Assembly (NCBI GenBank): GCA_020720185.1
Contig: DYPB01000076.1
Location: forward strand, 1-10,146
Reading direction: 5' to 3'
Length of the DNA stretch: 10,146 bases
From: Flavobacterium psychrophilum
GTDB taxonomy: Bacteria; Bacteroidota; Bacteroidia; Flavobacteriales; Flavobacteriaceae
Shown: piece by piece, positions 2,651 through 8,496 of the stretch
Numbering within the stretch: position 1 is the stretch's first letter
Layout: the number at the start of each line of letters is the position of its first letter
Notes under the pieces: generated by a model
Database searches by the model: none
Told to the model about the DNA's origin: nothing
What the model saw: only the letters and a program-made list of their open reading frames with translations
Translations under genes and position numbers: made by a program

Positions 2651-4846
2651 TTATTGCTTTGATTTATCTTTTACTTTAATATCTGTTCCTAATCTTTGGA
2701 TGTAGGCAATCATTGCTACAATTTCTCTATCTGCCATTGGAATGAATTTTTCTCCATTCGCAGCCGCTTTTTTCTTACTTTCTTCATAACTTTTTACGAA
2801 ATCTGGGTCAGAATGTAAGTTTTTCTCTATTTGATTGGATTGAAAATGAATTGATTTTTGAGCATTTGCAATTTCATAATCTGTATATGGAACGCCTAAT
2901 TCTCTCATTGTTTTCATTTTTTTCTCTATTAATGAGATATCCATTGGTTCATTGTCAAATAACCATTTGTAACTTGGCATTATTGATCCTGGCGAGATGC
3001 TTTGTGGGCTCCAGAAGTGGTTAAAATGCCAATTATCGTTGTATTTACCGCCACATCTTAATAAATCTGGACCTGTTCTTTTTGATCCCCAAAGGAATGG
3101 ATGATCGTAAACAAATTCTCCTGCTTTTGATTGTGGTCCGTATCGTTCTACTTCACTACGGAATGGTCTTACTTGTTGAGAGTGGCAGTTTACACAACCT
3201 TCTCTGATGTATAAATCTCTTCCTTCTAATTCAAGTGGTGTGTATGGTTTTACGCTTGCTATAGTTGGTATATTGGATTTAACCATTATTGTTGGTACAA
3301 TTTGAATAATTCCTCCGATTAAAATTGCAATTGTTGCTAAAATTGTTAATTGAATTGGTTTTCTTTCTAACCAAGGGTGGAATTTTTCTCCTTTTACTCT
3401 TCCTGCGCTAAGTCTTTCTAATGCTGGTGCTTCTGCTAATTCATCTTCAATATTTGCATTTGCTTTTACTGTTCTGATGATATTATATACTAATACAAGC
3501 ATTCCTATTAAATATAATGTTCCTCCAGTTGCACGCATGGCATACATTGGCATAATTTCTTTCACTGTTTCAAGGAAGTTTCCGTAAGTTAATGAACCGT
3601 CAGGATTGAATTGTTTCCACATTGAGGCTTGTACAAAACCTGCAACATACATTGGTAGTGTATATAAGATAATTCCTAAAGTTCCTATCCAAAAGTGAAA
3701 GTTCGCTAATTTTGTAGAATATAAAGTTCCTTTTGTCATTCGAGGTATTAACCAATAAATCATACCAAATGCCATAAATCCGTTCCAAGCTAAGGCTCCA
3801 ACATGTACATGGGCAACGATCCAATCAGTAAAGTGTGCAATAGCATTTACATTTTTTAGTGATAACATTGGCCCTTCAAAAGTTGCCATTCCATAACCTG
3901 TAATGGCTACTACAAAGAATTTTAATATTGGATCAACTCGAACTTTATCCCAAACACCTCTTAGGGTAAGTAATCCATTGATCATACCTCCCCAAGATGG
4001 TGCAATAAGCATAATTGAAAAAACTACTCCTAAATTTTGTGCCCAAGTGGGTAAGGCAGAGTATAATAAATGGTGTGGTCCTGCCCAGATATAAATAAAG
4101 ATTAAAGACCAAAAGTGTACAATTGATAGTCTGTAAGAATAAACAGGTCTGTTAGCTGCTTTTGGTACAAAATAATACATTAATCCCAAATATGGTGTGG
4201 TTAAGAAGAATGCTACGGCATTGTGTCCGTACCACCATTGCACTAATGCGTCTTGAACTCCTGCATAAACAGTATAACTTTTCATAGAATTTATTGCTAT
4301 TGGCAATTCTAAATTATTAAAAATATGCAATACTGCAACAGTAACAAATGTGGATATATAAAACCAAATGGCTACATAAAAGTGTCGCTCTCTTCTATTA
4401 ATCATAGTACCAATCATATTGATACCCATAGCTACCCAAGATAAAGTAATTGCAATATCAATTGGCCATTCTAATTCTGCATATTCATGAGTGGAAGTAT
4501 AACCTAAAGGCAAGGTAATTGCTGCTGCTACAATGATTGATTGCCAAGTCCAAAAATGGAAATTGCTTAAAAAATCGCTATACATTCTAGTTTTTAATAA
4601 TCTTTGCATCGAATAATACATTCCTGCAAAAAAGGCATTCCCTACAAAGGCAAAAATTGCTGCATTGGTATGCAAGGGTCTCAATCTGCCATAACTTAAC
4701 CAAGAAATTCCATCGGTTAAATTTGGAAAAAGATAATAGAAAGCTTCTAATAGCCCAACTAACATGGCTACTACACCAAAGATGATGGTGGCATAAATGA
4801 ATCTCTTTACAATTTTGTTGTCGTAATAAAATTGTTGTATTTCCAT
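2651..4846 (-). CDS. ccoNO: CcoNO, fused cbb3-type cytochrome c oxidase subunits I and II
   Basis: This 731-residue protein reduces O2 to water and pumps protons. Residues 1 to about 460 are CcoN, a 12-helix haem-copper oxidase subunit. Visible ligands are H59 (RPLHTNA) and H348 for low-spin haem b, H346 for haem b3 (WIVAHVHVG), and H208, H258 and H259 for CuB. Y252 in IYIWAGPHH is the tyrosine expected to cross-link to H208. After a charged linker (about 461-495) comes CcoO: one anchor helix (about 497-520), then a cytochrome c domain with CVNCH at 551-555 followed by SQQVRPF, and M623 (GSIMPSY) as the likely axial ligand. Proteobacteria encode these as two proteins; here the frame is continuous with no internal stop. 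It starts 2 bases after the ccoS stop. Confidence 0.97.
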   Translation of the reverse strand: MEIQQFYYDNKIVKRFIYATIIFGVVAMLVGLLEAFYYLFPNLTDGISWLSYGRLRPLHTNAAIFAFVGNAFFAGMYYSMQRLLKTRMYSDFLSNFHFWTWQSIIVAAAITLPLGYTSTHEYAELEWPIDIAITLSWVAMGINMIGTMINRRERHFYVAIWFYISTFVTVAVLHIFNNLELPIAINSMKSYTVYAGVQDALVQWWYGHNAVAFFLTTPYLGLMYYFVPKAANRPVYSYRLSIVHFWSLIFIYIWAGPHHLLYSALPTWAQNLGVVFSIMLIAPSWGGMINGLLTLRGVWDKVRVDPILKFFVVAITGYGMATFEGPMLSLKNVNAIAHFTDWIVAHVHVGALAWNGFMAFGMIYWLIPRMTKGTLYSTKLANFHFWIGTLGIILYTLPMYVAGFVQASMWKQFNPDGSLTYGNFLETVKEIMPMYAMRATGGTLYLIGMLVLVYNIIRTVKANANIEDELAEAPALERLSAGRVKGEKFHPWLERKPIQLTILATIAILIGGIIQIVPTIMVKSNIPTIASVKPYTPLELEGRDLYIREGCVNCHSQQVRPFRSEVERYGPQSKAGEFVYDHPFLWGSKRTGPDLLRCGGKYNDNWHFNHFWSPQSISPGSIMPSYKWLFDNEPMDISLIEKKMKTMRELGVPYTDYEIANAQKSIHFQSNQIEKNLHSDPDFVKSYEESKKKAAANGEKFIPMADREIVAMIAYIQRLGTDIKVKDKSKQ

Positions 4847-4848
4847 AA

Positions 4849-5055
4849 TTAATTTTGTTTTGTTATTTTATTGTTTTTTGTTTTTTTTGTTTCTACTTTT
4901 TTAGAGGATAGTTTTAATTCGTCATCAAATAACATTCGAACTGAAGGTGTATAATTATCCTCATATTGACCTGATTTTACGGCCATAATAAAAGAGATAA
5001 GAAAACCTACTGCAATTACAATACTTACTGTTATTAATATATATATAACACTCAT
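4849..5055 (-). CDS. ccoS: CcoS, cbb3-type oxidase assembly protein
   Basis: This 68-residue protein has one N-terminal membrane helix (about residues 4-25) followed by the CcoS signature AVKSGQYED...TPSVRMLFDDE (about 25-46). The tail is rich in Lys, Thr and Asn and is not conserved in the family. In proteobacteria CcoS is needed to insert haem b and copper into CcoN. It lies 92 bp downstream of ccoI and 2 bp before ccoNO. The gap before it carries a -7 element and an Fnr-type site, so it is probably the first gene of its own ccoSNOQPG transcript. The start is well placed: it leads directly into the helix, and no extension is needed. Confidence 0.95.
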   Translation of the reverse strand: MSVIYILITVSIVIAVGFLISFIMAVKSGQYEDNYTPSVRMLFDDELKLSSKKVETKKTKNNKITKQN

Positions 5056-5072
5056 AGCTAAAATTTATGTAG

Positions 5073-5080
5073 CAAAAATA
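5073..5080 (-). promoter_or_regulatory. Predicted -7 element of the ccoS promoter
   Basis: On the minus strand this reads TATTTTTG, an exact match to the Bacteroidota -7 consensus TAnnTTTG, 17 bases before the ccoS start codon. No good -33 TTG element lies at the usual distance upstream. That is expected if an activator bound at the nearby Fnr-type site replaces it. Transcription would start near 5068, giving a leader of about 13 bases. Confidence 0.55.
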
Positions 5081-5103
5081 ATTATCAATTTAGAATTAGA
5101 ATA

Positions 5104-5115
5104 TGATATTTATCA
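5104..5115. promoter_or_regulatory. Fnr-type operator upstream of ccoS
   Basis: TGATATTTATCA has both half-sites of the Crp/Fnr-family consensus TGA-N6-TCA, and specifically the Fnr form TGAT-N4-ATCA. If the first base of the -7 element is taken as -12, its centre lies at -41.5, the classical class II activator position. This predicts activation of ccoSNOQPG by an Fnr-like regulator under low oxygen, presumably the protein encoded at 7813-8496. Confidence 0.6.
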
Positions 5116-5147
5116 GTTTTTGAACTTTTGTTAATTTTTTGTTAAAT

Positions 5148-7520
5148 TTATTTAACTCTTGAAAATATATTAGTTACTATTGTTACAAAACTTACGATAG
5201 TAATTGTACTTAATGGCATTATAATTGCTGCAAAGATAGGTGATAAATTTCCGGTAATGGCATAACTTAAGCCAGTAATATTATATAATAATGATATTCC
5301 AAAACTGAGATAAATGGTTGTCATTGCATTTTTTGAATATTTCATAAAAAACGCAATATTTTTAAACTGCGAAGCATCTAAAATACCATCGCAAGCGGGC
5401 GAAAACACATTTACATTCTCTGAAATTGATATCCCTACATTGCTTTGGGCTAACGCTCCTGCATCGTTAAGTCCGTCGCCAACCATCATTACATTATGGC
5501 CTTGTTTTTGTAAATTATTTATAAATTCTAGTTTTTGTTCTGGTTTTTGATTAAAAACTAAATCCGTATTTGAGGGCATTAATCGTTGTAACGATTCTTT
5601 TTCGCCATCGTTATCGCCTGATAAAATGATTAATTTGTATTTTCTACTTAATGTTTCAAATAGTGTTTCCAAACCATCTCTGTATTGATTGTTGAAGATG
5701 AATTTTCCTAGATAACGGTCGTCAATTTTGATATGAACAATGGTTTGCTTTAAATTATTAGAATCATCAATACCAACAAAAGATGCGGAACCTATTTTTA
5801 TTAAATGTCCGTTAATAATTCCTTGAACACCTTTTCCTGTAATTTCATCAAAATTATTGACTGTGGTTTTTGAAACATTAGGTAAATAATCATATAACCG
5901 TCTACTTAGAGGATGGTTAGAGGCTCTAATTAAATTTTTAAATAGTAGTAAATCGTCATCTGAATAATTCCCGTCAAAGCTTATTGCTGATTTTTTATCG
6001 GTTGTTATTGTGCCTGTTTTATCAAATACAATCGTATCGACTTTTGCTAATTGTTCTATAACAGTGGCATTTTTTAGGTATAATTTCCGATTTCCCATAA
6101 TTCGTAAAACATTTCCTAATGTAAAAGGTGCTGTTAAGGCTAATGCACAGGGACAGGCAACAATTAGAATTGCTGTAAAAACATTGAAAGCCGTATTGAT
6201 ATCTATAAATGCCCAATAGATAAAGGAAATTATTGATAATGAGAGTAATACTGGTGTAAAATACCTACTTATTTTGTTGGTTATTGTTTTGTGTTTTATT
6301 TCGACTGTTTTCTGAAAAACATCGTTACTCCATAGTTGTGTTAAATAACTTTGCGAAATGGTAAATAGAACTTCCATTTCTATTACTTTTCCTAATTGTT
6401 TTCCGCCTGCAAAAACCTTGTCTCCCGATTTTTTTTCTATTGGAATGGCTTCACCCGAAACAAAACTATAATCTAATGAGGCGTTTTCTGATATTAATAT
6501 TCCATCAACAGGAATTAACTCTTGATTTCTAATCAACAATCTATCACCTTTTTCTATATCATAAACCGAAACTGGTATTTCGTCTCCGTTTGAAAGTATT
6601 TTTGTAACCGCAATAGGAAAGTATGATTTGTAATCCCTTTCAAAGGATAAAAAATCATAGGTTTTTTGTTGAAATAATTTGCCTAATAACATAAAGAAAA
6701 TTAGTCCAGCCATACTATCAAAAAAACCTTGTCCGTAATCAAAAATAATATCTATCGTGCTTCTTACAAACATCACAACAATTCCTAGTGCTATTGGAAT
6801 TTCGATATTAAATAGTCTTGATTTTATACTACTCCAAGCCGCTGTGTAATAACCGCTGGCAGAATAGAAAAAGGTGGGTAAAGAAAGTGCAAATATTAAC
6901 CATCTAAAAAAACCTCGATATTGATCAATCCAAAATTCTTTTACTTCAAAATATTCTGGAAAAGAGAGTAACATAATATTTCCAAAACAAAAGAAAGCTA
7001 CTCCAATTTTATAGGTTAAACTCCTGTCTATCTTATGTTTACCAGTTTCATAATTTTCTAAACTAATATAGGGTTCATAGCCAATAGAATGGAGCAAGAG
7101 TACTATTTTTTTTAGAGATACTTCTTTTGGATTGTAGTTTATTCTTACTTTTTTTTCTGAAAAATTAACTTGTGAGGTGGTTATTCCGTCTTGAAGTCGT
7201 TGTAAATTTTCTAATATCCAAATACAAGAACTACAATGAATATGAGGAATGTACAACGAAATGATTGCAGTAGAATTTTCCTGAAAATCTATTAATTTAT
7301 TTACAATATCTTCATTGTCTAAAAAATCATATTTTCCTAATGTTTCTTGTGGGGTTGCTCCTGGTGATTTTTCAAAATCATAATAGCAAGATAAATCATT
7401 TTGACTAAAAATTTCATAAACGGTTTTGCAACCATTACAACAAAATATTTTATCGTCAAATTGTATTTTATCAGATTCTATAATATCTAAACCACAATGA
7501 AAACAATTTTTAGAGCCCAT
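5148..7520 (-). CDS. ccoI: CcoI/FixI copper-translocating P1B-type ATPase
   Basis: This 790-residue inner-membrane pump exports Cu(I) toward the periplasm and is needed for cbb3 oxidase assembly. The N terminus holds a cysteine cluster (CFHC at 6-9; C27, C28, C31) typical of the putative metal-binding domain of this subfamily. A heavy-metal-associated domain with C96-S-S-C99 follows (about 85-155). Eight membrane segments are visible: four before the actuator domain (SGEA at 355-358), two around the copper-binding CPC motif (C456, C458), and two at the C terminus. Catalytic motifs are intact: D500 in DKTGTIT (phosphorylation site), H536-P537, and GDGLND (681-686). The gene is divergent from the Crp/Fnr regulator. 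Its promoter region has been separated from an Fnr-type site by a MITE-like insertion. Length is usual for the family. Confidence 0.96.
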   Translation of the reverse strand: MGSKNCFHCGLDIIESDKIQFDDKIFCCNGCKTVYEIFSQNDLSCYYDFEKSPGATPQETLGKYDFLDNEDIVNKLIDFQENSTAIISLYIPHIHCSSCIWILENLQRLQDGITTSQVNFSEKKVRINYNPKEVSLKKIVLLLHSIGYEPYISLENYETGKHKIDRSLTYKIGVAFFCFGNIMLLSFPEYFEVKEFWIDQYRGFFRWLIFALSLPTFFYSASGYYTAAWSSIKSRLFNIEIPIALGIVVMFVRSTIDIIFDYGQGFFDSMAGLIFFMLLGKLFQQKTYDFLSFERDYKSYFPIAVTKILSNGDEIPVSVYDIEKGDRLLIRNQELIPVDGILISENASLDYSFVSGEAIPIEKKSGDKVFAGGKQLGKVIEMEVLFTISQSYLTQLWSNDVFQKTVEIKHKTITNKISRYFTPVLLSLSIISFIYWAFIDINTAFNVFTAILIVACPCALALTAPFTLGNVLRIMGNRKLYLKNATVIEQLAKVDTIVFDKTGTITTDKKSAISFDGNYSDDDLLLFKNLIRASNHPLSRRLYDYLPNVSKTTVNNFDEITGKGVQGIINGHLIKIGSASFVGIDDSNNLKQTIVHIKIDDRYLGKFIFNNQYRDGLETLFETLSRKYKLIILSGDNDGEKESLQRLMPSNTDLVFNQKPEQKLEFINNLQKQGHNVMMVGDGLNDAGALAQSNVGISISENVNVFSPACDGILDASQFKNIAFFMKYSKNAMTTIYLSFGISLLYNITGLSYAITGNLSPIFAAIIMPLSTITIVSFVTIVTNIFSRVK

Positions 7521-7544: not shown

Positions 7545-7552
7545 CAAAAGTA
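7545..7552 (-). promoter_or_regulatory. Predicted -7 element of the ccoI promoter
   Basis: On the minus strand this reads TACTTTTG, an exact match to TAnnTTTG, 24 bases before the ccoI ATG; transcription would start near 7540. I see no convincing -33 element. The present upstream DNA is the end of the inserted element at 7578-7759 rather than an operator. Confidence 0.5.
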
Positions 7553-7577
7553 ATCAAATATTATAAGAATATTGTAT

Positions 7578-7596
7578 GGTGGGTTCTATAAATTAG
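7578..7596 (+). repeat. Left terminal inverted repeat of the MITE-like element
   Basis: The 19 bp read GGTGGGTTCTATAAATTAG and match the right terminus except at the fourth base. The preceding four bases GTAT are the left copy of the presumed target duplication. The match stops abruptly after base 19. Confidence 0.8.
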
Positions 7597-7638
7597 CTGA
7601 TAGCTATTTTTGGAATTATTTTGAATAGATTTTTTCTT

Positions 7639-7676
7639 TCTTTCTGTTCAAATATGCCCATATTTGAACAAAAAGA
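7639..7676. repeat. Strong palindrome inside the MITE-like element
   Basis: The core at 7645-7670 has perfect 12-bp arms (left arm TGTTCAAATATG) around a CC spacer. After one mismatch (7644/7671) the symmetry continues for five more pairs (7639-7643 with 7672-7676), so 17 of 18 positions pair. It could be a stem-loop in RNA, a cruciform, or a dimeric operator. No gene for a dedicated regulator is nearby, and no poly-T tract follows it on the plus strand. On the minus strand the following bases are CTTTCTTTCTTTTTT-like pyrimidines, so weak termination of transcripts in that direction is possible. Confidence 0.75.
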
Positions 7677-7740
7677 TGGGAAAAAGATGGCAAAATAAAA
7701 CAAAAAGAGCATCAGTAAAAAAAATAAATTTACAAAAAAA

Positions 7741-7759
7741 CTAATTTATAGAACCAACC
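7741..7759 (-). repeat. Right terminal inverted repeat of the MITE-like element
   Basis: Read on the minus strand, this is GGTTGGTTCTATAAATTAG, matching the left terminus at 18 of 19 bases. It is followed by the second GTAT copy, whose last three bases form the start of the Fnr-type palindrome at 7761-7776. Confidence 0.8.
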
Positions 7760-7760
7760 G

Positions 7761-7776
7761 TATGATAATTATCATA
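7761..7776. promoter_or_regulatory. Fnr-type operator upstream of the Crp/Fnr regulator gene
   Basis: TATGATAATTATCATA is a perfect 16-bp palindrome containing TGAT-N4-ATCA, the Fnr-type consensus. It lies 36 bases before the regulator ATG, which points to autoregulation. If the weak -7 element TATTTTTA at 7800-7807 is used, its centre is at -43.5 (activation-like). If TAATTTTA at 7784-7791 is used, it is near -27.5 (repression-like). Its left edge overlaps the target duplication of the adjacent element. Confidence 0.65.
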
Positions 7777-7812
7777 TTTTAGGTAATTTTACACTCAAAT
7801 ATTTTTATTATT

Positions 7813-8496
7813 ATGAGTAAATGTGATCAATGTATTATTAGAGAGATTAGTTCTCTGAAAGCACTCAGTAAAGAAGAGGTAATTGCAATGTCTAATTGTA
7901 AAGTCTCTAAAGTGATAAAAAAGGGAGAAGTGATTTTTAACGAAGGTGAATTTATTAATGGTATTTTTTGTATAAAAGATGGGATTTGTAAAATGACAAA
8001 ATTAAGTCCGAATGGAAAGGATCAAATTGTTAAACTAACTAAAAAAGGGGAATTATTAGGACAAAGGTCTTTAATTAGTAATGAACCAGCTAATTTAAGT
8101 GCCGTTGCACTTGAAAATATGGAAATTTGTTTTATTCCAAAGAGTGAAATTAATAGTTTTATTGATAACAACAAACAGTTTTCAATGAATGTAATGAAAA
8201 CCGTTTGTACTGATTTGAAAGATGCCGACGATTTAATGGTTAGAATGGCACAAAAATCGGTTAGGGAACGATTAGCTCATACGCTTTTGTATCTTGAAGA
8301 TACCTTTGGTACGAATGAGGATTTATCACTAAAAATTCAATTATCTAGAGATGATATTGCAGGTATGATAGGCACTGCTACAGAAAGTTGTATTAGATTA
8401 TTGTCTGAATTTAACAAATTAGGTTTAATTTTATTAAAAGGAAAATCTATTACAATTTTAAAAAAAGACAAGCTGAAACATTTAGCCCTAGATTAA
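7813..8496 (+). CDS. Crp/Fnr-family transcriptional regulator, Fnr-like
   Basis: This is a 227-residue cytoplasmic DNA-binding protein. A cyclic-nucleotide-binding-type beta roll covers about residues 20-115 (KKGEVIFNEGE, GDLLGQ-like KKGELLGQRSLI), a dimerisation helix about 118-145, and a winged helix-turn-helix about 148-220 (LSRDDIAGMIGTATESCIRLLSEF). The recognition helix has E191 and R195, aligning with the E-x-x-x-R residues of E. coli FNR that read TGA. The FNR serine position is isoleucine (I194). Cysteines C4, C7 (CDQC) and C29, plus one of C53, C59, C106 or C132, could bind an oxygen-sensitive 4Fe-4S cluster. Their spacing differs from E. coli FNR, so this is inference. Divergence from ccoI and two TGAT-N4-ATCA sites in the locus support control of cbb3 oxidase genes. 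The start is the only ATG that includes the CDQC motif. Confidence 0.92.
   Translation: MSKCDQCIIREISSLKALSKEEVIAMSNCKVSKVIKKGEVIFNEGEFINGIFCIKDGICKMTKLSPNGKDQIVKLTKKGELLGQRSLISNEPANLSAVALENMEICFIPKSEINSFIDNNKQFSMNVMKTVCTDLKDADDLMVRMAQKSVRERLAHTLLYLEDTFGTNEDLSLKIQLSRDDIAGMIGTATESCIRLLSEFNKLGLILLKGKSITILKKDKLKHLALD

Follow-up and report, generated by a model that had tools for sequence, protein, structure and literature searches.

A MITE-type insertion that probably took a conserved Fnr-like site from the ccoI promoter of Flavobacterium psychrophilum

A non-coding element of 182 bp lies between ccoI and a divergently transcribed Crp/Fnr-family regulator gene in a stretch of 10,146 nucleotides assigned to Flavobacterium psychrophilum (hereafter the window). 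The best explanation for its presence is that a MITE-type element inserted here and so separated ccoI from a conserved Fnr-like site that probably activates it; we consider this account likely as a whole, including the uncoupling of ccoI from oxygen that would follow from it. Our analysis supports the overall interpretation given earlier in a sequence-only reading of the same DNA.

The locus and the element

The minus strand of the window carries a cbb3 oxidase cluster (ccoG, ccoP, a fused ccoN/ccoO, ccoS and ccoI), which is followed by the divergent regulator gene and then ffh. The features on which the argument depends are as follows.

5073 to 5080, minus strand: −7 element of ccoS, TATTTTTG, read by hand
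5104 to 5115, no strand: second Fnr-like palindrome, TGATATTTATCA, upstream of ccoS-ccoN/O, its centre 36.5 bp from the ccoS −7 box
5148 to 7520, minus strand: ccoI, a heavy-metal P-type ATPase of 790 aa, frame uninterrupted
7545 to 7552, minus strand: −7 element of ccoI, TACTTTTG
7574 to 7577, no strand: left target-site duplication GTAT, read from the sequence and used as a flank in the shuffle test
7578 to 7759, no strand: 182-bp non-coding MITE-type element, one long imperfect hairpin (fold, copies elsewhere, no match in relatives' loci)
7578 to 7596, plus strand: left terminal inverted repeat, GGTGGGTTCTATAAATTAG, from sequence and pattern match
7741 to 7759, minus strand: right terminal inverted repeat, GGTTGGTTCTATAAATTAG, from sequence and pattern match
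7760 to 7763, no strand: right target-site duplication GTAT, its final T being the first base of the palindrome
7763 to 7774, no strand: Fnr-like palindrome, TGATAATTATCA, retained on the regulator side and conserved in position in relatives
7784 to 7791, plus strand: −7-like box of the regulator, TAATTTTA, one mismatch, 22.5 bp from the palindrome centre (about −27.5)
7813 to 8496, plus strand: Crp/Fnr-family regulator of 227 aa with an N-terminal CxxC, assigned by domain models

The ccoI product scores 290 bits against a copper-ATPase model, under the cutoff of 397, and the gene is therefore named for its place in the cbb3 cluster. The regulator matches PF00027 and PF13545 above cutoff (a cNMP-binding fold and a Crp-type helix-turn-helix); because its score against the NCBIfam Fnr model NF008365 (93.4 bits) misses the cutoff of 228, we term it Fnr-like only. 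Its best relatives by locus search are Flavobacterium proteins with up to 74% identity, and identity reaches 77% in another genome. All 67 rows of a comparison that contains one genome twice share cysteines C4, C7, C53 and C106. The Fe–S cluster of E. coli FNR is held by C20, C23, C29 and C122. The four regulator cysteines are candidate counterparts of these ligands, and the ligand set of the regulator may differ from that of E. coli FNR.

The structure described by the sequence-only reading, a 182-bp non-coding segment with 19-bp inverted ends differing at one position and GTAT on both sides, was borne out by direct reading and by shuffling. The two ends match GGTTGGTTCTATAAATTAG, a pattern itself derived from the window, with one and no mismatches, and none of 200 window shuffles was comparable. 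When the 292-bp spacer was shuffled 300 times with its dinucleotides kept, no shuffle gave inverted repeats of 19 bp with one mismatch or fewer and the same 4-mer immediately on either side; five gave a looser form (14 bp, two mismatches). No open reading frame of at least 60 aa overlaps the element. The perfect TGAT-N4-ATCA palindrome said to begin inside the right GTAT does so, using its last T.

Empty sites and operator spacing in relatives

Comparing the intergenic region with that of relatives, as the sequence-only reading had proposed, revealed the empty site. The spacer between ccoI and the regulator falls within 100–114 bp in 54 of 61 distinct relatives; one other has 160 bp, and the remaining six have 201–204 bp. 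Subtracting the insert and one GTAT (186 bp together) from the window spacer leaves 106 bp, within the range of those 54 relatives, in agreement with the earlier claim that this deletion restores a continuous sequence. Far from being shared by all divergent relatives, the 182 bp found no match at E 1e-4 in any of 146 fetched relative loci holding the regulator, and element-like sequence was found in none of 141 relatives' ccoI-regulator spacers. This larger set adds 80 spacers to the 61 (81 were sought; one had no recognisable ccoI beside the regulator), which, apart from L142, came from the high-scoring end of a match list (337 of 378 genomes matched) and not from a random draw. It includes three identical pairs, one untrimmed spacer (L151) and two entries that yielded no spacing and stay in the denominator, L193 and L173, the latter mis-anchored, since no recognisable ccoI adjoins its regulator.

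Several loci were dropped before counting: L010 (3.2 kb between the genes), L033 and L034 (too distant), L100 (the same genome as L001), L207 (no recognisable ccoI beside the regulator), and L143 and L144 (distant genera, by eye). The last two have a palindrome near the ccoI start, seen by eye and left unscored. The pairing of the two genes is not universal, the regulator having no recognisable ccoI neighbour in two genomes (G213 and G248; loci L207 and L173). L010, from Flavobacterium sp. MedPE-SWcel, presents a mirror case: about 3.2 kb of other DNA (2810–6000) separates ccoI from the regulator, and the palindrome remains on the ccoI side, with none seen by eye on the regulator side. The 160-bp spacer of L114 is longer by roughly 50 bp, which include two TTTTGTAGAA pieces and lie downstream of the regulator −7 box.

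Operator positions were compared as the distance from the palindrome centre to the last G of the −7 box. In a published account, this box occupies −12 to −5 (PMC9723704); a distance of 36.5 bp therefore corresponds to −41.5. Palindromes in relatives were scored with the relaxed pattern TGAY-N4-RTCR; 14 of the 61 relatives have the strict TGAT-N4-ATCA, and most of the remainder are of the type TGATATTTGTCA. On the ccoI side, the distance is 36.5 bp in 55 of the 61 and 37.5 bp in the other six. Over all 141 spacers it is 36.5 bp in 130, 37.5 bp in eight and 35.5 bp in one, the palindrome being absent at such a distance in two. When distances from 10 to 62 bp were scanned in the 61 relatives, the other peaks were all lower (14 relatives at 27.5 bp and seven at 29.5 bp). 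The ccoS-side palindrome is equally constant, with 36.5 bp in 29 of 31 relative loci (exceptions L005 and L020). Towards the regulator, a TAnnTTTG box lies 22.5–24.5 bp from the palindrome centre (about −27.5 to −29.5) in 49 of 61 relatives and is not found there in 12. The number of palindromes in the window is not enriched (nine sites within one mismatch against 8.7 expected), so the evidence lies in their conserved position.

Together, the empty-site length in relatives and the constant spacing show that the site was shared by the divergent genes and that its spacing to ccoI has been lost in the window. The centres of −42.5 at ccoI and −41.5 at ccoS given by the sequence-only reading follow from the reconstructed 37.5 bp and the observed 36.5 bp. 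Its ancestral site common to ccoI and the regulator is confirmed by the empty-site spacers and by distances of 35.5–37.5 bp in 139 of 141 relatives. Its view that the site stayed intact on the regulator side and was shifted away from ccoI likewise holds, the distance to the ccoI box now being 223.5 bp.

In the F. pectinovorum/oncorhynchi group (L012–L017), whose spacers measure 201–204 bp, the ccoI-side spacing is maintained; the nearest TAnnTTTG towards the regulator lies about 100 bp further away in five of these six loci and about 60 bp further in L014.

Predicted consequences for ccoI

In E. coli, promoters activated by Fnr or Crp in the class II manner have a TGA..TCA palindrome centred at −41.5. 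The loci studied here have the palindrome and its position in common with those promoters; they differ in having a Bacteroidota TAnnTTTG promoter, and activation is predicted only. The mechanism that we favour would begin with a non-autonomous MITE-type element entering the 106-bp spacer and duplicating the 4-bp GTAT. The insertion would have cut at the first base of the shared TGAT-N4-ATCA operator; because the duplication rebuilt this base, the operator is intact on the regulator side. Seen from ccoI, it would have moved from −42.5 to about −228.5, with MITE sequence filling its former place. The operator is presumably bound by the neighbouring Fnr-like protein. Its position at −41.5 suggests contact with RNA polymerase and class II activation of ccoI, and its position about −27.5 from the regulator, across that gene's promoter, makes autorepression probable. 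The insertion would then uncouple ccoI, and with it copper supply, from low-oxygen induction; the ccoS-ccoNO promoter retains its operator at −41.5. We infer from the sequence that ccoI has lost oxygen control and that its expression is altered. One study describes the cbb3 oxidase of F. psychrophilum as strongly up-regulated when oxygen is limiting (PMC9723704).

The promoter of ccoI could also soften or cancel such an effect. The ccoI −7 box of the window is a full TAnnTTTG, found at that place, with TA at −12/−11, in three of the 139 relatives with conserved spacing; the closest relative, L085, has GAATTTTG. Relatives' own ccoI boxes mostly carry one mismatch. Within the element, we found neither an Fnr-like TGAT-N4-ATCA within one mismatch nor a perfect TAnnTTTG directed towards ccoI. 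It does contain nine one-mismatch −7-like boxes pointing to ccoI and one exact box, at 7605–7612, aimed at the regulator. As the boxes of relatives are also mostly one-mismatch, transcription of ccoI might now begin within the element.

These observations leave room for a neutral insertion, in which the site serves mainly the regulator, or in which the full −7 box or a start within the element suffices for ccoI. The rarity of the full box among relatives, the nine candidate boxes and the uninterrupted ccoI frame all fit such a course, which we nevertheless judge somewhat unlikely: the distance to the ccoI box is 36.5 or 37.5 bp in every one of the 61 relatives, matching that at ccoS in 29 of 31, and this argues that the site matters for ccoI. 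Under the favoured insertion that removed an activator site, the full −7 box hints at compensation after the loss, a post hoc reading of a single observation among species of shared descent. A more specific scenario, in which a mobile hairpin crossing Flavobacteriaceae genera took the ccoI activator site and a T gained at −12 then made ccoI constitutive, the oxidase operon staying under oxygen control, would be unlikely in its entirety and is put forward tentatively.

Copies, fold and relation to known elements

Copies of the element occur elsewhere in the family. BLAST returned matches in three of 398 genomes drawn from the genus, of which those in G079 (79% identity over 176 bp) and G342 were judged real, and in three of 388 genomes from a family draw that may overlap the first, of which those in G615 and G775 were judged real; the matches in G038 and G544 were judged not to be real copies. 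Partial matches of about 19–60 bp (G001, G003, G012, G038, G544 and elsewhere in G342 and G079) were set aside by judgement as chance or low-complexity similarity. Near-complete copies number one or two per carrier genome, with two in G775 and one plus end fragments in G615; the G342 copy is readable in its right half, its left part falling in an N gap. The copies lie at loci other than the ccoI spacer, beside an FtsZ C-terminal reading frame in G079 and upstream of recR in G342, and all four carriers have a ccoI spacer without the element. TTAA borders both ends of the C11 copy of G615 and the C132 copy of G775, so that the ends do have second copies with direct repeats, and related copies in G079 and G342, as the sequence-only reading would lead one to expect.

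The flanks of the six copies are mostly 4-mers with a central TA, TTAA being commonest; the one readable flank of the G342 copy is TTAT. Some features of the flanks count against the best explanation: the window target is GTAT, whereas the two cleanest copies have TTAA; the two flanks differ at another two of the six (TTAA/TTAT in G775 C124 and TTAA/TTTT in G079, where TTTT is a misfit); and one left end is unread. The window element agrees with the G615 copy at 167 of 182 positions (91.8% identity), and the regulator proteins of the two genomes are just 45% identical, a disparity that fits horizontal movement between genera, with contamination of an assembly as a possible alternative. The G615 and G775 copies (L116:284–362 and L117:161–205) each carry additional sequence, different in the two, at almost identical positions of the 3′ arm. 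An 82-bp stretch of G615 (L139:1501–1582) with similar ends (GGTAGGTTTTAAGAATTAG and an inverted partner) is perhaps a shorter member of the family.

A search by end patterns of the 398 genomes, the four carriers and viral contigs, with hits only partly fetched and annotated, gave no recognisable transposase-bearing element that could be the autonomous parent IS. With up to two mismatches, the end pattern occurs in 61 of the 398 genus-draw genomes; since a reversed control pattern is nearly as frequent (57, a hand count), most of these hits are noise. Hits in three viral contigs were judged from reading alone to be phage coding sequence, the longer end pattern and the core motif each gave none in viral contigs, and no match to the element was found in phages and plasmids at E 1e-5. 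The label 'MITE-like' is fair on size, lack of coding capacity, inverted ends, target duplication, the empty site and occurrence at several loci, with no parent IS bearing these ends recognised in that search.

From end to end, the element forms a single imperfect hairpin, with an RNA folding energy of −61.3 kcal/mol (z −10.2; none of 200 shuffles as good) and a z of −8.8 when folded as DNA. Across the six copies, 22 of 66 pairs show two-sided change, against a mean of 8.6 in shuffles and none of 500 shuffles that high, and sliding the pair partners abolishes this signal (at most seven two-sided pairs). Pairing is retained in 96.4% of cells, a figure biased by taking the fold from the window copy; the two-sided changes are less affected. 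The fold is thus conserved across the six related copies, which is strong evidence for, though not proof of, selection on RNA or single-stranded DNA. An identical two-sided trace would result if one arm served as template for correcting the other.

The hairpin might accordingly be a functional structured RNA or regulatory DNA recruited to the spacer, its fold under selection, its movement rare and its effect on ccoI its purpose. Such a role would suit the depth of the fold, the excess of two-sided changes and the low copy number per genome. We regard it as improbable, given that copies sit at unrelated loci, that the ccoI spacers of all four carriers lack the element, that Rfam gave no match in the window at gathering score, and that arm correction within a hairpin also yields paired changes. 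A covariance model (R1), run with stricter tool filters, recovered no genome besides G079 and G342 among the 398.

Misjoining of a repeat into the spacer during assembly is highly improbable: the absence of the element from this spacer in relatives would suit an artefact, but the exact 4-bp duplication lies at the precise ends of the repeats, and the joined flanks give the empty-site length. An insertion is thus supported by ends, duplication and fold beyond chance, by empty spacers and constant spacing in relatives, and by copies at unrelated loci.

Mobile elements that alter promoters are a known kind of event. In two reviews of bacterial MITEs (PMC10969869, PMC2229807), such elements are shorter than 500 bp, non-coding, AT-rich and intergenic, with terminal inverted repeats, direct repeats at younger copies and transcripts that form stable stem-loops, all in common with the window element. 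Unlike bacterial MITEs generally, the window element has no identified parent IS, is found in one or two near-complete copies per carrier, and maintains its fold across genera despite many two-sided changes. In Neisseria, the Correia elements or NEMIS (PMC2229807, PMC2649163) are likewise small hairpins beside genes whose control they alter; they are reported to supply promoter sequences, sites for RNase III or an IHF site, whereas the window element is proposed to displace an operator. Their lengths differ as well. Regulatory roles of IS elements are treated in PMC9208149. The terms Bacteroid and Flavobacteri are absent from the main text of a 2024 MITE review, and a literature search for 'miniature inverted repeat' together with Flavobacterium returned a paper on a Cardinium MITE alone (PMC9769881). 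We recognised no published account of this hairpin family or of such an insertion in a literature search whose scope left most subscription papers and ISfinder outside.

The type of event is already known, and the comparative evidence for it is unusually clean here. An operator spacing that is near-constant among the relatives examined and is broken here by a clean insertion amounts to a deletion experiment done by nature on the control of cbb3 oxidase copper loading by oxygen, and makes it testable whether CcoI needs to be co-induced with the oxidase. The hairpin element family described here appears, in addition, to have crossed genera.
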